IMG/VR virus record: IMGVR_UViG_3300045941_000100
Location: 1 to 20,588 of that record
Direction: 5' to 3' (one strand)
DNA: 20,588 nucleotides
Source of the DNA: a virus
Notes under the pieces: model-generated
Told to the model about the DNA's origin: nothing
The model's input: the letters and a program-made list of their open reading frames with translations, nothing else
Database searches by the model: none
Made by a program: the position numbers and the translations under genes
In this document: piece after piece, positions 1,148 through 15,204 of the stretch
Numbering within the stretch: the first letter of the stretch is position 1
How the letters are laid out: each line of letters starts with the position of its first letter

Positions 1148-2173
1148 GTGCTGCGGCTGACGGAGGAGACGGTTCGGTTCAACCGAGGCGCGCGCGCGAA
1201 TGCTCCCAGCGGGGCATCCGATCTCGCCCAACTAGCAGCGAGCCTGTCGTCCGGTCAGTGGTCGTCGTTCACGATGGGCGGTCTCACGGCCGCGATCTTC
1301 GTGGCGACCGGCGCCAGCGATCTGACGATCGGCGAGTTCGCCAGTCGGATGATCTGGGATCCGACGAACAAGAAGATTCAGTACTCCGGCACGTCGCACA
1401 CGGGCGGATCGCCGCTCGCGGGCTCCGGAGGCCTCGCGACGTGGGACGACGCGACGAACCAGTGGACGCGCGAAACGTACACGTGGAACTCGGACGCCGA
1501 GGGTCATGGCTACCAGCACATGACTCGCGACCTGCTCGGGAATCTCTACCGGCGCCACACGAACTCGAGGACGATCAAGCGCCGCGAGTACGGGGATACC
1601 GGCGAGGCGTCCTGGGAGACGGGGCACGTCGCCGACATCACGGGCAACTACGCCAACCAGTTCGCGGGAGGCCTGGAGTGGTTCCCTGAGCTGAACGGCG
1701 GCAGCGGCGGTCTCGTGTTCGTCGACTCGCTGGGCGCGAAGTACACGAACGCCGCGCTCTCGTCGTGGACCGACGCCGATGCCGCTGGCGGCGACCACGA
1801 CCAGAACATCGCCTACTTCGGCGGCAACGTGTACTTCGGCGGCAGCAGCGACGGCGATCTGAATCTGTATCGCATGGGGCCGACCGGCACGATCACCGCA
1901 ATGGCGGATCTGCCGTTCCCCGCGAACACGAACGTCGGGGACGGGATGATGATCGCCGCCCCGAACAACAACGGGCTGTTCCTGCTCGAGGCGGCGAGCA
2001 ACGGTGACTTCCGGTTCTTCAATGGGACGTCGTGGTCGGATCTGGGCTCGCACCAGTTTCAGAACGACGAGTACTTCCTCCCCGTTCCGATCTCGACCTA
2101 CGGCGTGATTCTCGGCGTGACGATCGACTCGTCGGGCGTCGCGACGCCGGCGGCGAAAGTCTACAAGCAGTAG
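1148..2173 (+). CDS. Phage structural protein, beta-rich, propeller-like
   Basis: 341 residues from GTG 1148; the ATG at 1146 stops after four codons. The sequence is rich in Gly, Asn, Asp, Thr and aromatics, with repeated blades of the type 'G-N-V-Y-F-G-G', 'G-L-V-F-V-D-S-L-G', 'G-L-F-L-L-E-A' and 'G-N-L-Y-R-R'. This resembles Kelch or beta-propeller-like phage appendage proteins. No signal peptide or membrane segment is visible. It sits among fibre-type genes and abuts the next gene with no gap (TAG then ATG), so it is probably a virion surface component. Before the HNH insertion its start was one base from the upstream stop; it may then have depended on translational coupling, since no good ribosome binding site is visible. 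No exact family is recognised. Confidence 0.7.
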   Translation: MLRLTEETVRFNRGARANAPSGASDLAQLAASLSSGQWSSFTMGGLTAAIFVATGASDLTIGEFASRMIWDPTNKKIQYSGTSHTGGSPLAGSGGLATWDDATNQWTRETYTWNSDAEGHGYQHMTRDLLGNLYRRHTNSRTIKRREYGDTGEASWETGHVADITGNYANQFAGGLEWFPELNGGSGGLVFVDSLGAKYTNAALSSWTDADAAGGDHDQNIAYFGGNVYFGGSSDGDLNLYRMGPTGTITAMADLPFPANTNVGDGMMIAAPNNNGLFLLEAASNGDFRFFNGTSWSDLGSHQFQNDEYFLPVPISTYGVILGVTIDSSGVATPAAKVYKQ

Positions 2174-2884
2174 ATGGCTACCACTGTCCGATCGTCGTCT
2201 ATCAACGCTGCCGCGAGTGGCACTGCCGTCTCGGTCTCGGCGCCGTCTGGCACGACAGCAGGCGATTTGGGCATCTGCATCGTCTGTTGCAACGGCAACA
2301 CGACGATCGTCGACAACAACGGTGGCACGTCGTTCACGGAGGACCTGAACGACGAGCAGGAGGTCACGGCCGGGATCACGCTGTCGGTTTTCACGCGCCG
2401 GATCCTGGGCGGCGACCCGAGCACGTACAACTTCACGATCGGTGCAAGCGGAAGGTGGACCGCGGTCGCGATCGCGGTTCAGAACCCAGACGGGACCACG
2501 ATTTACGACGTCACTCCGGCGGTAGGCGACAAGACGGCAGCCGCGGCGTTCGGAATCGCTCCGTCCATCACGACGTCGACCGACCAGTCGCTCCACTTCG
2601 CCCTCGTCGGCGTCGACGGCGACACGAACGTCGTGACGGGGACGCCGGCCGGGTACACGGTGCTGCAGAACGGCGGCAATCAGACGATCGCTGTGGCGTA
2701 CAAGGTCATCACGCCCGCTGGCTCTACCGGCGCGCAGCAGTTTGACTTCACGACCGCCAACGGAGTGATCCCGGTGTCCTTTGCGATCGAGAACAACCCC
2801 GCGGCCGGCGGCACGCCGGCTGTGATCAAGTTTGCTCGCAATCGCATGCGGCCCAGAGTCTTCGCTCCCGGCATTGTGCGATAG
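2174..2884 (+). CDS. Phage surface protein, beta-sandwich 'PSGTTAGDL' type
   Basis: 236 residues, ATG immediately after the previous TAG. The N-terminal half has the pattern P-S-G-T-T-A-G-D-L-G-I followed by a hydrophobic strand, then a 'G-G-T-S-F-T-E' strand. The protein at 3428-4174 shows the same layout (A-G-D-I-L-L-A, then P-P-A-G-W-T-E-L). Such modules occur in phage appendage and adhesin-like proteins, so the two look like distant paralogues. The last 25 or so residues are basic and different in character (ARNRMRPRVFAPGIVR), possibly an attachment peptide to the virion. There is no enzyme motif. Function beyond 'virion-associated' is inferred from context. Confidence 0.65.
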   Translation: MATTVRSSSINAAASGTAVSVSAPSGTTAGDLGICIVCCNGNTTIVDNNGGTSFTEDLNDEQEVTAGITLSVFTRRILGGDPSTYNFTIGASGRWTAVAIAVQNPDGTTIYDVTPAVGDKTAAAAFGIAPSITTSTDQSLHFALVGVDGDTNVVTGTPAGYTVLQNGGNQTIAVAYKVITPAGSTGAQQFDFTTANGVIPVSFAIENNPAAGGTPAVIKFARNRMRPRVFAPGIVR

Positions 2885-2892
2885 GAGTTGGA

Positions 2893-3426
2893 ATGTCTCG
2901 ACAAGCGTGGAACGAAACACTGGCGTGGATGACCGCCGACGCTACGGCGGTCCACACGACCACGACCGAGACGATCATCGTCCCGAATGTGACGATTCCG
3001 GCGAACTACATGGCCGACGGGCGCCTCCTGCGCGCTCAGGTCTTCGGCAAGCTGTCGACGACCGGTACACCGACGATGACCTTCGCGGTTCGTTGGGGAG
3101 GCGTCGGAGGGACGCTGCTCGCTACGACTGAGGCGATCACCAACGGTTCGGGCGTGACGAACGTCAACTGGTCGCTCGACGTCTACATCCAAACCCGATC
3201 GAACGGCGCGACAGGCTCGCTGCTCGTTTGGGGCGTTGCTCGAGTTCACACTGCGGCAGGCACGGTGGTCACGAACGTATTCGGCGTGTCGGGCCATGAT
3301 GCGCCCGCGGCGGTCACAGTCGACCTCACTGCCGACACGGCGCTGGCTATCACTGGAGATTGGAGCGCCAACAGCGCCAGCAATACGCTGACAGCGATGG
3401 GCTATTGCCTCGAGGCTCTGAACTAG
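2893..3426 (+). CDS. Phage jelly-roll-like structural protein
   Basis: 177 residues from ATG 2893, with AGGAG at 2883-2887. After a short N-terminal helix (MSRQAWNETLAWM) the protein is almost entirely predicted beta, with repeated Thr/Val strands. The central signature A-D-G-R-L-L-R-A-Q-V-F-G-K-L-S-T-T-G-T-P is typical of small phage proteins with a jelly-roll-like fold, often adjacent to fibre genes. The C-terminus contains an ALAITGDWSANSASNTLT strand pair and ends EALN. I assign it to the virion appendages on fold type and neighbours only. Confidence 0.65.
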   Translation: MSRQAWNETLAWMTADATAVHTTTTETIIVPNVTIPANYMADGRLLRAQVFGKLSTTGTPTMTFAVRWGGVGGTLLATTEAITNGSGVTNVNWSLDVYIQTRSNGATGSLLVWGVARVHTAAGTVVTNVFGVSGHDAPAAVTVDLTADTALAITGDWSANSASNTLTAMGYCLEALN

Positions 3427-3427
3427 T

Positions 3428-4174
3428 GTGCCTGACGTTTCATTCGTCGCGGCGGGGGCGCTCGGCACCGAGGTAGCGGATCAAACGCTGACGGTCGCCG
3501 CTCCGACGTGCGAGGCGGGCGACATCCTGCTCGCTCAGATCATCAACAAAGCGCTGTCGGTGGCGATCACGCCGCCGGCCGGGTGGACCGAGCTCTACCA
3601 GGCGGATGCGGACTGCACGACTGCGGCCGACGACCATCGGGCGGCGTTGTACTGGAAGCGAGCAGCGCTCGCGGATTCGGGGGCGAACTTCGATTTCACG
3701 AAGGCGAGCGGCACGGTGCTGTTCGCTGGCGTCATCTCAGCGTGGAGATGGGCGGACGCCTTCAACCCGATCGACAAGAGCGGCGTAGCGTCGCAGGTCA
3801 ACGCGGCCGCGGCCGACAACGTCACGTTCCCGGCCTACGACCCGTGGAGCGATCGGGCGCACGTGATTTTCTTCTCGTACTACGGGAACGACCTCACGAC
3901 GTTCGGCGCGGCGATGAGCGTGGACACGAATCCCGACTGCACGTTGCGGTACGACTTGGAGTCGAGCGCCGGGAACGATTGCTCGCTCTCGTGCATCTCG
4001 GGAATCTGCGATGGCAGCAGCATCGCGTCGCGCACGTGGGCCAGCGCGTCGACGGCTGATGCTGGGAGCACCGCGCTCGTTGTTGGGCTTGTCCCTCGAG
4101 CGCCGCTCCCGCAGAACTACCAGTTCGTACGCGCTAACGGCGCGATGACCATTTCGGGAAGCAAGCTCCGATGA
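3428..4174 (+). CDS. Phage surface protein, beta-sandwich 'AGDILLA' type
   Basis: 248 residues from GTG 3428, one base after the previous TAG. Residues 30-65 carry A-G-D-I-L-L-A followed by I-T-P-P-A-G-W-T-E-L, a pattern seen repeatedly in phage and secreted beta-sandwich proteins. A second strand set follows (VLFAGVISAWRW), then an Asp/Ser-rich stretch with a cluster of Cys (CTLR, CSLSCISGICD). Its architecture parallels the 2174-2884 product, suggesting an old duplication with extensive divergence. The gene ends TGA 4172-4174, overlapping the ATG of the next gene, so the two are translationally coupled. Probable virion appendage; exact role unknown. Confidence 0.65.
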   Translation: MPDVSFVAAGALGTEVADQTLTVAAPTCEAGDILLAQIINKALSVAITPPAGWTELYQADADCTTAADDHRAALYWKRAALADSGANFDFTKASGTVLFAGVISAWRWADAFNPIDKSGVASQVNAAAADNVTFPAYDPWSDRAHVIFFSYYGNDLTTFGAAMSVDTNPDCTLRYDLESSAGNDCSLSCISGICDGSSIASRTWASASTADAGSTALVVGLVPRAPLPQNYQFVRANGAMTISGSKLR

Positions 4175-6211: not shown

Positions 6212-6762
6212 TCCAGCTCAACATCCGCTCGGACATTCGCCAGGCGGAGCGCTTTCTCACCAACCTGCGCAAGAACGCAGTGAAGAAAGCAGCGGCGAGG
6301 GCGATCAACGACACGCTGATCACGCTCCGGGCCGAGGGCTCGAGGGAGATCAAGGCCGACCACCCGGCGCTCAAGATCTCCGAGATCAAGAAGAACATGG
6401 TCATGAAGAAAGCGCACCAGTACAACCTGGTGGGGCGCTTGAGCACGAGCGGCCGCCCGCTGTCCATGCTGCTGTTCCGGCCCACTAGGGGCAGCAAGCG
6501 AGTCGGAGTGAAAGCGCGCATCGGTCATGCGAGGGGTCAGCTCGACTACCAAGGACGCAAGGCGTTCAGGATCAGGGCGTTTGCAGACGAGGTGTTCGTA
6601 CGCAGATTCGGCCGCGGGCGCCAGGTGCGCCGGCTCAGAGGGCCGTCTATGCCTGGCGTGTTCCGTGCTCAGGGCGTGAAGTTCAAGCGGATTGCTCAAA
6701 ATAGGTGGCAGGTCCGCTTCAACCACCAACTCAAGTATGAGATCGAAATCGCAAAGCGTTAG
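6208..6762 (+). CDS. Z: Minor tail protein Z-like
   Basis: 184 residues from GTG 6208 (GTGA overlap). It has the signature of the lambda gpZ family: an N-terminal helical segment with A-A-A-R-A-I-N-D-T, then S-R-E-I-K-A-D-H-P-A-L-K-I-S-E-I-K-K, the G-R-P-L-S-M-L-L-F strand, a G-V-K-A-R-I segment and the F-R-I-R-A-F-A-D-E-V-F-V-R-R core. It is strongly basic, and its length is near the family norm. In lambda, gpZ works at the head-proximal end of the tail and lies between FII and U. Here it is upstream of the terminase, and the usual place (16109-16381) has no Z gene. Its last 25 or so codons are less GC-rich than the rest and overlap the start of the second HNH gene. Confidence 0.8.
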   Translation: MIQLNIRSDIRQAERFLTNLRKNAVKKAAARAINDTLITLRAEGSREIKADHPALKISEIKKNMVMKKAHQYNLVGRLSTSGRPLSMLLFRPTRGSKRVGVKARIGHARGQLDYQGRKAFRIRAFADEVFVRRFGRGRQVRRLRGPSMPGVFRAQGVKFKRIAQNRWQVRFNHQLKYEIEIAKR

Positions 6763-7606
6763 CGCGTGCTCGTGCGGAAAGCCTCTCGTGCAAAAACCGG
6801 GGCGCGGGCGAGCGGCGGTTCATTGCTCGCGCGCGTGCCGCGATCGTGTCAGCCGGATCTCTGCGGCAGGCAAGGCCAGAGTCAGCCGACAACGCGCCTC
6901 GGAGAAGCTGCGCGGACGTTCTGTTCATCGCAAGCGAGCAGATCGTGACCGAAACAGGACGCGCGGCAGGGTATTCCAGAAGCACTACCGTACCCAAGTA
7001 GATAGGGGCGCGTACTCAGGCTCTCTTGAGGAATACGCCGAGCACATCGAGCGTGTGCGCATGTCGTGCGGTACGCAGGAGTCATGGAAGGCATGGCTGC
7101 CGCCGAAGCCGGAGCCCACAAGGGCGCCAGGGCCAACTCCTGCTGAGCGCTACAGGGCAAGGTACAGGAGCGATCCAGCGTACCGATTGCGTGAGCGCAT
7201 GCGCCGTCAGTTCAAGAAGTGGTTGAGCGGGGAGAGAATCGCAAAGCCATCGTTTCTCTCATCGCTGAACTACACGTGGGCCGAGTTGCGAGATCACATC
7301 GAGAAACAGTTCGTGCGGGGCATGGATTGGAGCAACGCGGGCCGTTGGCACATCGACCATATCGCGCCGAAGTCGTCTTTCGATCCATCAGACGCAGCGC
7401 AGGTGCGTGCGTGCTGGTCGCTCGAGAACCTGAGACCGCTATGGGCATTGGACAACATGCGCAAGGGAGCGCGGCTGAAGTGTACTTGTACCAGTACGCT
7501 TGGGTCCTTCCCGGGCCGGCCACCCACCGCGGCACCGCGTGCCCCGAGGATCGACGATATTTCGCGCCCGATTTTTTCTGGACATTTGGGCGATGGCGCT
7601 GCCTGA
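6737..7606 (+). CDS. HNH endonuclease with N-terminal zinc-finger-like segment
   Basis: 289 residues from ATG 6737, inside the end of the Z-like gene; a TTG at 6692 would be longer. C11, C13, C30 and C34 make a likely zinc-binding pair of Cys clusters. A long Arg-rich helical linker follows (residues 38-165). The nuclease core lies at residues 185-245: W204-H205-I206-D207-H208-I, then W-S-L-E-N231-L-R-P-L and D239-N240-M-R-K-G. This is the usual layout of phage HNH enzymes with an H-I-D-H motif. The family normally ends shortly after 'KGAR', so the last 40 or so Pro/Arg-rich residues may be spurious translation of the region before the terminase gene. HNH proteins next to terminase can take part in packaging in HK97-like phages; a selfish homing role is the alternative. 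Confidence 0.85.
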   Translation: MRSKSQSVSACSCGKPLVQKPGRGRAAVHCSRACRDRVSRISAAGKARVSRQRASEKLRGRSVHRKRADRDRNRTRGRVFQKHYRTQVDRGAYSGSLEEYAEHIERVRMSCGTQESWKAWLPPKPEPTRAPGPTPAERYRARYRSDPAYRLRERMRRQFKKWLSGERIAKPSFLSSLNYTWAELRDHIEKQFVRGMDWSNAGRWHIDHIAPKSSFDPSDAAQVRACWSLENLRPLWALDNMRKGARLKCTCTSTLGSFPGRPPTAAPRAPRIDDISRPIFSGHLGDGAA

Positions 7607-10233: not shown

Positions 10234-10760
10234 ACATTCCGACCTCGCTCGTCGCCGGCGACGCCTGGCAGTGGGACGCCGAATACGGCGATTACCCTGC
10301 CGACACATGGACCGCGACTGCGTACTTCCAGAACGCGAGCAACCAGTTCACCGTCGCGTCGACGGCGAACGGCACAGCGCATCGCTTCGCGGCTGCGGCG
10401 ACAGCGACGGACGACTTCAAGGCTGGACACTATTACGTCCAGGTCAGGGTCACGGACGGCGCGTCGCCGGCGACAGTCGAGACCGGGTGGGTTCAGGTCA
10501 TCGCCGACCCGGCGTCCGAGGTCAAGGTCGATCACCGTTCGTGGGCGCGTCGGACTCTCGATGCGATCGAGGCGTTCCTCGAGGGCAACGCCACGACCGC
10601 GCAGCAGAGCATGAGCATCGCTGGTCGGTCGCTGTCTCGCTGGTCGCTTGCTGAGCTGATGAAGTTCAGAGACCAGCTGCGCGGCGAGGTCCGCACCGAG
10701 GAACAGGGATCAGCGGCAGGCCTTGGCCGCAACATCAAGGTGCGTTATGGCCGGCCGTAG
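10230..10760 (+). CDS. gpW-like head-tail connector fused to an N-terminal beta domain
   Basis: 176 residues from GTG 10230. Residues 1-95 form an Ig-like or jelly-roll-like beta domain (N-I-P-T-S-L-V-A-G-D-A-W-Q-W, then H-Y-Y-V-Q-V-R-V-T-D-G). Residues 108-176 have the layout of lambda gpW: helix, A-F-L-E-G-N, a beta hairpin S-M-S-I-A-G-R-S-L-S-R, a second helix W-S-L-A-E-L-M-K-F-R-D-Q-L, and a basic tail G-R-N-I-K-V-R-Y. Position between terminase and portal is where lambda W lies. gpW alone is 68 residues, so this is a two-domain version. The N-terminal half resembles proteins seen next to portal genes in other GC-rich siphoviruses. The gpW match is from pattern and synteny. Confidence 0.65.
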   Translation: MNIPTSLVAGDAWQWDAEYGDYPADTWTATAYFQNASNQFTVASTANGTAHRFAAAATATDDFKAGHYYVQVRVTDGASPATVETGWVQVIADPASEVKVDHRSWARRTLDAIEAFLEGNATTAQQSMSIAGRSLSRWSLAELMKFRDQLRGEVRTEEQGSAAGLGRNIKVRYGRP

Positions 10761-12864
10761 CGGAGCGACGATCACGCTCTCGATCAACGCTCCTGCCATT
10801 GGGTCGCTGCTGCGCAAGGTGTCTCGGCGTGTCTCCAGTGCGTGGCGTGCGTTACGCGGAAAACAGCTCTGGACCCGCATGTATGCCGCCGCGCGCGCGT
10901 CTCGTCTCACCGGCGATTGGCAGGCAGCAAATACCAGCGCAGATTCGGAGCTTTCCAGCAGCCTGACGCAACTTCGGTCACGTTCGCGCGCGCTTTGTCG
11001 CGACGTGAGCTACGCGAAGCGCGCGAAGCAGCTCGTCGTCAACAATGTGATCGGCACCGGCATCGGCATGCAGGGCCAGGTCTACACGACCCGCGATGAA
11101 CTGAACGCGCGGGTGAACGACGAGATCGAGTCGGTCTGGAAAGAGTGGTGCTACGCCGATCACTGCCATACGGGCGGGCGCCTCGACTTCGCGCTATTCG
11201 AGCGCGCGCTGATGGCCCAGGTGTTCGAGGCCGGCGAGGTCCTCGTCCGGAAGCACTACCGCAGGTTCGGCAAGTCGGAGATCCCGTTCGCGCTCGAGCT
11301 CATCGAGGCCGAACGGATCGCTGACGACATGTATACCGCGTCGTTCGAGCGGGGAGGTCGGAACGAGATCAGGATGGGCGTCGAGGTCGATCAATTCGGC
11401 CGCCCGATCGCCTACTACATCCGCCGGCGCCATCCGGGCGAGTTGCGGTTCACGTTCAACATGATGCCGGACGACATCGAGCGCGTGCCGGCCGATCAGA
11501 TCATTCACCTCGCGTTCGGTGATCGCTGGCCGCAGACGCGCGGCGAGCCGTGGATGTCGGCGGTCATTCGCACGGCGCGCGACATGGCCGGCTACATCGA
11601 GGCCGAGATCACGCGCGCGCGAACGCAGGCGTCGGTTCCCTGGACCATCGAGACGCCGGAGGACATCACGTCGTTCGGAGAGGAACAGGCCGATGGCTCG
11701 GTCGAGATGGAGGTCGAGCCTGGTATCGCGAAACGGCTGAACCCTGGCGAGACGATGAACGTGCCGGCGATCGGCTCGCCGAATCCGCAGGTCGAGCCGT
11801 TCATGCGGTATCTGCTGCGGGACTTCGCCTCTGGGCTCGGTGTCAGCTACGCCTCGCTATCGGCCGATTACTCGCAAGGCAACTACTCGAGCTCGCGGCT
11901 CGCGTTGCTCGACGACAGGGACGTATGGCGAGCGTTTCAGACGTGGTTCCTGTGCTCGTTCCGTCAGCCGATTCACCGCGAATGGATGCAGCAGGCGGTC
12001 CTCGCCGGCGCGTTCAAGACGTTCTCGATCGAGTCGTGGGCGCTCGACCGTCGCAAGTACGAGGCCGTGCGCTTCCGTCCGCGCGGCTGGGGCTGGGTGG
12101 ATCCGACCAAGGAAGTCGAAGCGTTCAAGGAAGCGGTGCGCTGCGGCTTCATGACGCTGCAGGACGTCGTGTCGCAGAGCGGCGCCGACATCGAGGAAAT
12201 CTTCGACCAGCGCGAGAAGGAGATCGGTCTCGCGGCCGAGGCCGGCCTAGTGCTCGACACGGACCCGGCGAACGAGATCAAGGCCGAGCCGGAACCGGAC
12301 CCTCCGGCCGAGGCGCCGGACGAGGACGAAGAGGACGACGAGATTGGAGAGAATAGGGCATGGGCAGCCGCGTTGAACTCGCTGGAAAGCGCTTTGGCAG
12401 ACTCGTCGTTGTCGAACGCACGAACCGCCGCAACTCTTCAGGAGACGTGTTCTGGCTTGCGACATGCGATTGCGGCCAGCAACGAGAATACCGCGGCAAG
12501 AATCTCCGAGGAGGCGAAGCGCTCTCGTGCGGATGTGGCCGAAACCAGGAAGGCTATAGAAAGCTCCGAGCGCGCGATCTCACGGGCGTCAGATTTGGTC
12601 GCTTGGTCGCAAAAAGCATCTCAGGATTTACGGTCGGAGGTGCGCGATGGCTTTGCGTCTGTGACTGCGGTGTCCGTAAAACAGTCCGCGGAAATAGCCT
12701 CACTACGGGACACACAACTTCGTGCGGCTGCTATCGACCAGTCAAACATCGCAACCTTGCCGGGCGAAGGTTCGGCAAACTCGTCGCCCGACAAAGAGTT
12801 GCGAGAAAAGGTGGCGATGCACTCTGGCAATGCGCCTGCGATTGTGGCCGGAACGTCGAAGTAA
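10747..12864 (+). CDS. Portal protein, lambda family, with 167-residue out-of-frame-overlap extension
   Basis: 705 residues from ATG 10747; a TTG at 10723 is less likely. Residues 1-538 are a full lambda-type portal: N-terminal basic segment, R-A-L-C-R-D-V-S-Y-A-K-R-A, a long wing, the L-E-L-I-E-A-E-R-I-A-D segment, G-V-S-Y-A-S-L-S-A-D-Y-S-Q-G-N-Y-S-S-S-R, and a final helix F-D-Q-R-E-K-E-I-G-L followed by an acidic Pro-rich tail. Lambda gpB has 533 residues, so the family-length protein ends at base 12360, exactly at the ATG of the HNH gene. The frame then continues 167 codons through that gene in the +1 frame. The extra stretch is Ala/Ser/Glu/Arg-rich and helix-like. It forms the dodecameric DNA gate of the capsid. 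Confidence 0.93.
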   Translation: MAGRSGATITLSINAPAIGSLLRKVSRRVSSAWRALRGKQLWTRMYAAARASRLTGDWQAANTSADSELSSSLTQLRSRSRALCRDVSYAKRAKQLVVNNVIGTGIGMQGQVYTTRDELNARVNDEIESVWKEWCYADHCHTGGRLDFALFERALMAQVFEAGEVLVRKHYRRFGKSEIPFALELIEAERIADDMYTASFERGGRNEIRMGVEVDQFGRPIAYYIRRRHPGELRFTFNMMPDDIERVPADQIIHLAFGDRWPQTRGEPWMSAVIRTARDMAGYIEAEITRARTQASVPWTIETPEDITSFGEEQADGSVEMEVEPGIAKRLNPGETMNVPAIGSPNPQVEPFMRYLLRDFASGLGVSYASLSADYSQGNYSSSRLALLDDRDVWRAFQTWFLCSFRQPIHREWMQQAVLAGAFKTFSIESWALDRRKYEAVRFRPRGWGWVDPTKEVEAFKEAVRCGFMTLQDVVSQSGADIEEIFDQREKEIGLAAEAGLVLDTDPANEIKAEPEPDPPAEAPDEDEEDDEIGENRAWAAALNSLESALADSSLSNARTAATLQETCSGLRHAIAASNENTAARISEEAKRSRADVAETRKAIESSERAISRASDLVAWSQKASQDLRSEVRDGFASVTAVSVKQSAEIASLRDTQLRAAAIDQSNIATLPGEGSANSSPDKELREKVAMHSGNAPAIVAGTSK

Positions 12865-13235
12865 TCGCCAGATCGCTGGTTCACGGCAAAACGACGAGTT
12901 GCGGGTGCGCGTGGCAATTCAGAGCTGGCGGTAGAAGCAAGACTCTTGAATACAGAGCTACGAAACAACAAGAGCGAGAAGCGAAAAAACGCGGCAATGG
13001 CGGGACGTTCTCGCATGATGAGATTGAGCGACTGTACGAACTGCAACAAGGCAAGTGCGCGGTTTGCAGAACAAGCCGCACGCTCGCGAAGATGCACCGA
13101 GATCACATCATCCCGTTGAGCGCTGGCGGAGGTAGTTCGATCGCGAACATCCAACTGTTATGCGCGTCGTGCAACTGCTCGAAGCACGCCAAGCATCCGA
13201 TCGTGTTCATGCAGTCGAGAGGGTTTCTGCTGTAA
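12360..13235 (+). CDS. HNH endonuclease with three zinc-ribbon/AP2-like DNA-binding repeats
   Basis: 291 residues. Residues 5-59, 71-124 and 130-183 are three copies of a unit with 'L-A-G-x-R-F-G-R-L-V', a C-x-C-G pair and a terminal S-C-G-C, the unit found in phage HNH proteins of the AP2-like type. Residues 219-285 carry the HNH nuclease: Y-E-L-Q-Q-G-K-C-A-V-C, H-R-D-H-I-I-P-L-S-A-G-G, N-I-Q-L-L-C-A-S-C-N-x-S-K. All metal and catalytic positions appear intact. The ATG at 12360 lies inside the portal frame at the point where a normal portal gene would stop, so translation is probably coupled. Codon use is less GC-rich than portal or capsid genes, in line with recent arrival. A terminator follows. 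Likely a free-standing homing endonuclease. Confidence 0.92.
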   Translation: MGSRVELAGKRFGRLVVVERTNRRNSSGDVFWLATCDCGQQREYRGKNLRGGEALSCGCGRNQEGYRKLRARDLTGVRFGRLVAKSISGFTVGGARWLCVCDCGVRKTVRGNSLTTGHTTSCGCYRPVKHRNLAGRRFGKLVARQRVARKGGDALWQCACDCGRNVEVIARSLVHGKTTSCGCAWQFRAGGRSKTLEYRATKQQEREAKKRGNGGTFSHDEIERLYELQQGKCAVCRTSRTLAKMHRDHIIPLSAGGGSSIANIQLLCASCNCSKHAKHPIVFMQSRGFLL

Positions 13236-13258: not shown

Positions 13259-13288
13259 AACGCCGGCCCAGTGCCGGCGTTTTCGTTT
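13259..13288 (+). terminator. Intrinsic terminator after the third HNH gene
   Basis: A perfect 9-bp GC-rich stem (13259-13267 with 13273-13281), 5-base loop and a T-rich run TTTTCGTTT form a good Rho-independent terminator. It lies between the HNH stop and the ribosome binding site GAGGAG (13290-13295) of the capsid gene, in the middle of what should be one late transcript. Either late RNA polymerase is antiterminated or capsid genes have their own promoter; I see no clear promoter here. Confidence 0.8.
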
Positions 13289-13302: not shown

Positions 13303-15204
13303 GTGGAAGTGATTCAAGTTCCGGTTCTCAAGAGAGAACTGGAGATAGAAGGCTTCGCGATGCGAAAGGCCGAAGATGGCCAGTATCGCCTGACGTTCTC
13401 GGCATCATCGGCATATCCGGTGGAGCGTTTTTTCGGCACAGAAGTGCTGGACCACTCGGGCGTCAGGCTGGACCGCATCAAACGAGGCGCCGTCCCACTG
13501 TTGTTCAACCACGACTTCGACAAGCCCCGCGGCATGGTCGATTCAGCGCGTGTCGATGGTGAGCGCCTAGTCGTTGACGCGCATCTTTTCGATACGCCCG
13601 AGTCGCAGTCTCTGAGGTCAATGATCGAGGGAGGTCTGCGCAACGTCTCCATCGGCTATCGATTGCACGAAGTCGAAGAGTTGAGCGACGGGACGACGCA
13701 CGTCCGCGACTTCGAGCCATACGAGATTTCCATTGTGAGTGTTCCGGCTGACCCAACTGTCGGCATCGGCCGCGATTTGCACGGAGAAAAATTCGAGGTG
13801 CGGATGCTCCGCGCCTCTCCCGTTGTTTCAACCCCCAAGTCGGCGCAAGCCGCGAAGGAAGCAGCAATGAGCGAACAGCTCAACACCGCCGCGGCGGGCG
13901 CAAGCGCCGAGCAAGTGAAAGTGTCCGCCATCCAGGCGGAGCGCGGTCGGCGCGACGCGATCATCGCTCTCTGCAAGGGCAATCGCATCGACGCGCGCGC
14001 CGAGAACACGTGGATTCAGGACGGCACGCCGATCGAGGACATTCGCAACGACAAGGGCGAGGTGACGACGAAGGGCGTCGCGAGCCAGATCCTCGACGTC
14101 ATCGAGGAGCGTGGCAAGGCGCGCCCGGCCGTGGCGTCGGAGCTCGGCTTGACGCCGAAGGAGCGTGACAAGTTCAGCCTGTTCCGCGTGATCCGTCACC
14201 TGAAGGATCGCGGCGACATGGCAACTCGTCAGGCCGCGGCGTTCGAGCTCGAATGCTCCGCGGCCGTCGCCAAGAAGCTCGGCCGCGACGGCACGGCGAG
14301 CGTCTTGATCCCGGCAGAGGTGCTGACGCGCCCGATGTCGGTGGAGGCCATGCAGCGCGCGATGGCGACGACGCCGGGCTCGAAGGGCGGCTATCTCGTG
14401 AACGTCGAGAACATGGGCTTCATCGACATCCTGCGCAACCGCTCGGTTACGCGGAATCTCGGCGCCCGCGTGCTCTCGGGTCTCGAGGGCAATCTCGTCT
14501 TCCCGCGTCAGACCGGCAAGCAGAGCGTGACGTGGCAGGCCGGCGAGCACACGAGCGTGACCGCTGGCGATCAGGCGCTCGGCCAGCTCTCGATGACCCC
14601 GAAAACCGCGATCACGATCACGGACGTGTCGGAGCAGCTGCTGCGGCAGTCTTCTCCGTCGGCCGAGCAGTTCGTGATGGCGGATCTCGCGGCGGTCATC
14701 GCGATCGACGGCGTGGACGCGGCCGCGATCAACGGCACGGGCGGGGCCCAGCCGCTGGGCGTGAAGAACACGACCGGCATCACGAGCGGCCAGGACTCGG
14801 CCACGGCGACCTACGCGAAGGTTCTCGCGTTCCCGGTCGCGGCCGGCGCGGTCAACGCGATCCGTGGCAACCCCGGCTTCGTGACCAACATCGCGGGCGC
14901 CGCGGTGCTGATGCAGAAGTCGCGGTTCTCGAACACGGACACGCCGCTGTGGGAAGGGAACCTCATGGACGGCAGCCTCGTCGGGTTCCGCGCCATGTCG
15001 AGCGAGCAGCTCGCCTCCGGCAACCTGATCTTCGGCTCGTGGGACGAGCTGGTGATCGGCGAGTGGGGCGTGCTCGAGCTCGCCACGGATACCGGCGGCA
15101 CGCGGTTCAACACCGCGACCGTGGGCATCCGCGCGATGTGGATGGTCGACGTGCTGCTGCGGTATCCGCAGGCGTTCGTCGTGTCGACCAACCTGTCGGC
15201 GTAG
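13303..15204 (+). CDS. Prohead protease fused to HK97-fold major capsid protein
   Basis: 633 residues from GTG 13303, with GAGGAG 7 bases upstream; the ATG at 13301 stops after three codons. Residues 1-155 are a U35/S78-type prohead protease: H70 in L-F-N-H-D, S116 in N-V-S-I-G-Y and E141 in Y-E-I-S-I-V-S-V-P-A-D-P are the likely catalytic residues. Residues 190-300 are a helical scaffold-like delta region. The capsid fold follows, with V-E-A-M-Q-R-A, G-G-Y-L-V, the I-D-I-L-R-N-R-S-V-T-R-N-L-G-A segment, the F-P-R-Q-T-G-K-Q-S-V-T-W helix/E-loop region and P-Q-A-F-V-V-S-T near the end. Fusions of this kind are known in some siphoviruses. An internal ATG at 13867 with AAGGA at 13854-13858 could also make the capsid part (445 residues) separately. 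Confidence 0.93.
   Translation: MEVIQVPVLKRELEIEGFAMRKAEDGQYRLTFSASSAYPVERFFGTEVLDHSGVRLDRIKRGAVPLLFNHDFDKPRGMVDSARVDGERLVVDAHLFDTPESQSLRSMIEGGLRNVSIGYRLHEVEELSDGTTHVRDFEPYEISIVSVPADPTVGIGRDLHGEKFEVRMLRASPVVSTPKSAQAAKEAAMSEQLNTAAAGASAEQVKVSAIQAERGRRDAIIALCKGNRIDARAENTWIQDGTPIEDIRNDKGEVTTKGVASQILDVIEERGKARPAVASELGLTPKERDKFSLFRVIRHLKDRGDMATRQAAAFELECSAAVAKKLGRDGTASVLIPAEVLTRPMSVEAMQRAMATTPGSKGGYLVNVENMGFIDILRNRSVTRNLGARVLSGLEGNLVFPRQTGKQSVTWQAGEHTSVTAGDQALGQLSMTPKTAITITDVSEQLLRQSSPSAEQFVMADLAAVIAIDGVDAAAINGTGGAQPLGVKNTTGITSGQDSATATYAKVLAFPVAAGAVNAIRGNPGFVTNIAGAAVLMQKSRFSNTDTPLWEGNLMDGSLVGFRAMSSEQLASGNLIFGSWDELVIGEWGVLELATDTGGTRFNTATVGIRAMWMVDVLLRYPQAFVVSTNLSA
13854..13869 (+). promoter_or_regulatory. 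Candidate internal ribosome binding site and start for separate capsid protein
   Basis: AAGGA followed 8 bases later by ATG (13867) occurs in the linker between the protease and capsid modules, the only place where an internal start would be useful. The predicted product begins MSEQLNTAAAGASAEQV, which looks like a natural capsid precursor N-terminus. It may be a relic of formerly separate genes or a working second start. Confidence 0.45.

Follow-up and report, generated by a model that had tools for sequence, protein, structure and literature searches.

Out-of-frame insertions of HNH endonuclease genes are known from phages. The ShiLan domain is one such case, with an HNH gene lodged in the DNA methylase gene of a phage (PMC11855218, 2025), and in Aeromonas phage Aeh1 the endonuclease gene mobE is inserted in nrdA (reviewed in PMC2988022 and PMC3653736); the free-standing endonuclease genes of phage T4 overlap the gene upstream by 11 to 24 bp (PMC2988022). 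Portal proteins with long helical ends are known as well: the P22 portal has a native 123-residue C-terminal coiled-coil barrel, 15 nm long, the last 50 residues of which are dispensable (PMC4992974). In the literature on overprinting and homing endonucleases, we came across no account of a portal protein lengthened by an out-of-frame HNH gene, which is the arrangement considered here.

The DNA analyzed, referred to below as the window, is a virus record of 20,588 bases; the features of the portal locus described here lie on its + strand. The portal reading frame (10747..12864) runs from an ATG at 10747 to a TAA stop at 12862-12864 and encodes 705 amino acids, including the extension. It specifies a lambda-type portal: residues 52 to 398 match PF05136 with an E value of 7.5e-95, and the best Foldseek matches of the portal model are lambda portal structures. 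PF05136 is the only Pfam match in the 705-residue protein, and the tail thus has no match in Pfam. The HNH gene (12360..13235) starts at an ATG at 12360, stops at 13235 and encodes 291 amino acids, with CDCG/SCGC-type repeats followed by the HNH domain; PF01844 and PF14279 match at HNH residues 233 to 280, the protein falls in phrog_374, and both the gene and its HNH domain are intact. The portal frame is +1 relative to this gene. At the junction, gggcATGggc, it is read as GCA (12358-12360) and TGG (12361-12363); there is no portal-frame stop at the start of the HNH gene, and the frame continues for 167 codons, or 501 bases (12361..12861), within it. The two genes overlap by 505 bp, and the portal-frame stop, at 12864, leaves the last 371 bases of the HNH gene uncovered. 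In both respects the initial annotation of this locus was correct: the frame does read through an intact endonuclease gene, and base 12363, a G, would give a portal TGA if it were an A. The HNH-frame stop TAG at 12354-12356 directly precedes the HNH ATG, and GGAGAG at 12345..12350, 9 nucleotides upstream of that ATG, is a possible ribosome-binding site for the HNH gene. Elsewhere in the window, a second HNH-type gene (6738-7606) probably begins inside the final 25 bases of the gene ahead of it, which stops at 6762, and its 3' end overlaps the beginning of the gene that follows; homing-gene insertions with short overlaps thus recur in this genome.

Each of the described systems shares part of this arrangement. 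Like ShiLan, the HNH gene of the window lies in another frame of an open phage gene, with no intron or intein found, and is probably retained in the host protein. However, ShiLan is internal, its host frame reads through it, and its host is a dispensable enzyme, whereas in the window the host is an essential virion gene, affected at its 3' end, and the host frame neither stays open through the whole HNH gene nor resumes beyond it. Relatives of the HNH gene that appear ShiLan-like are found in two other loci (L309, 2755-5229; L314, 624-3269), where they seem to be wholly contained, in another frame, in a longer helicase-like open frame; L309 may also hold an intein. Aeh1 and the window have in common a free-standing HNH endonuclease that interrupts its host gene without being spliced out, the host protein remaining functional; nrdA, however, is split into two working halves, while the window portal loses its last codons and gains a 167-residue tail in a foreign frame. 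The T4 endonuclease genes also start inside the upstream coding region, although their overlaps are far shorter than the one in the window. The P22 portal is similar in the predicted length and the helical nature of its C-terminal tail; the P22 barrel is native, however, whereas the window helix follows a disordered linker, is not homologous to it and has been predicted for the monomer only.

Comparison with related portals, which are approximately 47 to 86% identical to that of the window, shows what the native 3' end would have looked like. In the first set of relatives collected, the portals normally end 89 to 136 residues past the motif DPTKEV, compared with 254 in the window, and the portal gene is normally followed by a gene for a fused prohead protease and capsid protein. 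The window retains this gene at 13303..15204; it encodes the prohead protease and the major capsid protein as a single fusion, as it does in most relatives, where it lies directly 3' of the portal gene. Portal and capsid genes are adjacent, with no HNH gene between them, in relatives up to 86% identical; among 152 distinct portal 3' ends, this type of HNH gene lies behind the portal in only two, those of the window phage and of a second phage discussed below, and the other 150 are without it. The acidic Pro/Glu/Asp linker of the window (12301..12357), located by alignment near the native portal end, is the point from which relatives continue for a further 10 to 15 codons (..PAxxRVxSxxR*), commonly closing with motifs such as EPAERRVFSFQR or PARVVSIAR; these codons are missing from the window portal. 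The initial annotation had the portal reaching normal family length exactly at the HNH ATG, and relatives do end at about that point, but the loss of these last codons means that the agreement is not exact.

In some relatives the last portal codons also encode a possible RNA signal. A terminator-type hairpin with a T-rich tract lies inside the last portal codons at 14 of 46 portal ends, compared with 0.1 expected from codon shuffles and with 1 of 215 interior control pieces; carriers, in the last 60 bases of the portal gene, include L005, L007, L118, L123, L131, L132, L135, L141 and L150. The conserved C-terminal motif (RRVFSF..) may therefore largely read out an RNA signal between the portal and capsid genes. 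At the portal/HNH junction of the window this hairpin is absent. Instead, it sits behind the HNH gene at 13259..13281 (AACGCCGGCCCAGTGCCGGCGTT, followed by TTCGTTT), approximately 20 bases before the start of the capsid gene. The surrounding bases could be translated as NAGPVPAFSFERS*, a peptide similar to the native tails, and by its position and the hairpin the segment 13259..13300 is probably what is left of the portal's original tail and stop; the peptide match is weak (P = 0.036), with two frames in contention, so it is the hairpin that carries the claim of a displaced tail. The simplest reading of these sequences is that the HNH gene entered the 3' end of the portal gene, so that the native tail and stop came to lie beyond it. 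Since the hairpin has been displaced, the point of entry in the window would have been slightly upstream of the native portal stop.

The second phage, L179 (IMGVR_UViG_3300046526_000616), has a portal with approximately 53 to 59% identity to that of the window phage and repeats the arrangement. Its portal frame (1393-3606, 737 residues) runs 154 codons past the start of an HNH gene (3141-4070, 309 amino acids) in the +1 frame, and the HNH protein is 37% identical to that of the window and belongs to the same family. At 3141-3330, where the portal tail overlaps, the L179 protein has a degenerate first CDCG/SCGC-type repeat, with SRRC in place of SCGC; its third repeat and its HNH domain are intact. 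The HNH gene begins in the context gaaCTATGggt and ends in ctcCTATGAcc, so that CTATG occurs at both edges, and the HNH stop TGA overlaps the ATG of the capsid gene as ATGA. An ATGA junction of this kind is present at 54 of the 152 portal ends. An HNH gene that has a G after its ATG and is placed at an ATGA junction leaves the portal in the +1 frame, and we infer that in L179 the portal TGA became TGG upon such an insertion; the TGG stands at the same junction position as in the window, where the HNH gene likewise begins with ATGG. The earlier proposal that a TGA had been lost through a single base, at 12363, fits the ATGA junction of L179, whereas in the window the native tail appears to have been displaced behind the HNH gene instead.

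Could the apparent extension be an artifact, or be removed before it reaches the virion? A sequencing or assembly error at the junction could in principle hide the real stop, since one base, an A at 12363, would yield it. Two other IMG/VR contigs, from samples that are possibly not independent, are identical over 5.4 kb and 5.7 kb spanning the junction, and a distant phage, L179, also reads TGG at this point; an error is thereby largely refuted, and we give it next to no weight. A search of the INPHARED collection for near-identical phages returned a 90-base match only. The suggestion that the HNH segment is an intron or an intein, removed before or after translation to leave a normal mature portal, draws on the frequent carriage of HNH genes by introns and inteins and on the native-tail remnant behind the gene, but only about 20 to 60 bases lie outside the HNH gene, and the probable remnant is in another phase. 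The HNH gene, moreover, does not share the portal frame and has an in-frame stop ahead of it, which rules out an intein, and an Rfam search gave no intron match at E values up to 1, on which grounds a group I or group II intron was also rejected. We consider splicing of either kind highly improbable. Scarcely more credible is a -1 ribosomal shift near the junction, by which translation would end at the TAG at 12354-12356, giving a portal of near-normal length, or would produce a portal-HNH fusion: the position of that HNH-frame stop directly before the HNH ATG would suit it, but no slippery heptamer is seen at the junction by eye, and relatives need nothing comparable. Because there is no stop, no intron and no clear frameshift site, the tail is expected to be translated.

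Whether the frame has been kept open is a separate question, and the two phages give different answers. As a null, the HNH codons were shuffled synonymously, with alternative codon pools drawn either from genes of phages or from the HNH gene in full. For the window, which had been chosen for its long run, the first +1 stop falls at or after codon 167 in 5% of shuffles (4 to 8% under the other pools), and the HNH gene as a whole has two +1 stops where 2.7 are expected (P = 0.46). In L179, which had been noticed among long portal tails, there is no +1 stop in the first 154 codons and there are eight afterwards (P = 0.0043 by synonymous shuffles; P = 0.007 and 0.06 under two other codon pools). 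None of 109 control HNH genes had an open run with a P value of 0.01 or less; one control with a long +1 run, L273, was rejected because its HNH start had been called too far upstream, inside a normal preceding gene. A separate, unbiased search of portal loci for HNH genes found no counterexample with a short run, and none of the 152 portal ends combines this HNH type with an early portal-frame stop, the observation that the initial annotation had named as grounds for its refutation. The check that it had proposed, whether the +1 frame of related phages is open beyond what the HNH codons predict, has a positive outcome in L179, but the window is near chance. Taken by itself, the window shows no selection, and chance nearly explains its open frame. 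The third-position GC of the portal frame is 0.62 in the window overlap and 0.84 in the portal gene proper; that of the HNH frame is 0.56 in the overlap and 0.65 in the rest of the gene in the window, and 0.49 and 0.61, respectively, in L179. The lower HNH values in the overlaps are a weak sign that fits a +1 frame that is also coding. The +1 peptides of the two phages show no likeness beyond what the alignment of their HNH genes imposes (P = 0.51).

The added peptide had also been described as helix-like, and AlphaFold2 predicts approximately 110 helical residues in each of the two tails. In the window, modeled with aligned relatives, a disordered linker is followed by one predicted helix of 109 residues (portal residues 558 to 666), with pLDDT values mostly between 71 and 87; in L179, helices are predicted at residues 578 to 655 and 660 to 697, with pLDDT values mostly between 67 and 78. 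The helix propensity of the +1 peptides, however, equals the shuffle null (P = 0.6 in the window and 0.3 in L179) and was rejected as evidence of selection; the helix-like makeup is a by-product of the HNH codons, and because the helix-prone composition comes from those codons, the AlphaFold2 helices alone do not demonstrate function. Amphipathicity separates the two phages. The hydrophobic moment of the L179 tail is 0.91, compared with 0.61 ± 0.08 in shuffles, with its peak at 100 degrees (P = 0.0003 to 0.0007; at most approximately 0.002), and that of the window tail is 0.72, with a peak near 100 degrees (P of approximately 0.14). No control HNH gene among the 109 reached a P value of 0.005 or less for the moment, and the control values were otherwise roughly uniform. 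The window tail also has a proline-free run of 133 residues (P = 0.022). Long tails occur naturally in this portal family: L361, which has no HNH gene, has a coiled-coil tail of approximately 200 residues in ordinary coding sequence, resembling the window portal in its long helical C terminus and differing from it in the absence of the HNH gene. Several other relatives, likewise lacking the HNH gene (L198, L218, L189, L201 and L188), have natural long portal tails made of other repeats, including beta-type repeats such as VNVAAPEV. Given these natural tails and the native P22 barrel, a helical tail on this portal is physically reasonable.

We propose that a free-standing HNH endonuclease gene of homing type inserted itself where the portal gene meets the protease/capsid gene and, as comparison with the relatives shows, removed the native portal stop. 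Portal ribosomes would then run on for 167 codons in the HNH +1 frame, which is open, while the HNH protein would be made by internal initiation at its own ATG, possibly with the GGAGAG at 12345 as its ribosome-binding site. Read in the +1 frame, the repeat-rich HNH gene yields little proline and much Ala, Ser, Glu and Arg, so the tail would have been helical from the start: a flexible linker and then a helix of approximately 16 nm, projecting beyond the portal's end and probably reaching into the head. It would be tolerated since portals in this family have a disordered and variable end in any case, which in some relatives is extended and in one is a coiled coil. In L179, the statistics indicate that selection has since kept the +1 frame open and amphipathic. 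We regard this account, from invasion and loss of the stop to selection in L179, as reasonably probable. Within it, a translated and tolerated helical portal tail is likely, and a selected function of the tail is plausible.

The neutral explanation is that the insertion is recent, the frame is open by chance and the tail, idle or trimmed by the head protease, is a harmless or slightly harmful by-product that will eventually be ended by a stop. The near-chance openness of the window frame, the undepleted total of +1 stops, a helix propensity no different from the null and the identity of all three copies of the locus are all as this would predict; on the other side, L179 repeats the arrangement with significant openness and amphipathicity, and altering one base in the second codon of the HNH gene would be enough to end a harmful tail. 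We put it only a little short of an even prospect, and for the window phage it remains strong. The signal of selection in L179 tilts the balance toward a tail that matters in that phage. The view of the initial annotation, that this is an overprinted capsid extension born of a selfish gene, is supported by the frame through the HNH gene, the lack of an intron and the recurrence in L179, but the evidence for selection comes from L179 and not from the window, and its further step, to virions with twelve such tails, is an inference. That the tail is a new virion domain overprinted on a selfish gene, kept open in at least two distant lineages as an amphipathic, 12-fold helical barrel in the head, we think rather unlikely, and the assembly of twelve tails into a barrel is speculation.

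If the proposed history is correct, what sets it apart from the known out-of-frame HNH insertions, exemplified by ShiLan and Aeh1 mobE, is the portal extension, which we have not found described. It would represent an uncomplicated way for a selfish gene to equip an essential structural protein with a new domain: a stop codon is lost upon insertion, and the +1 frame of the invader already reads as a helix. No long search of sequence space would be needed, because the HNH code itself supplies the helix-prone sequence. The same route predicts that homing genes located at ATGA junctions, with a second codon that does not begin with A, will give rise to +1 extensions of the genes upstream.
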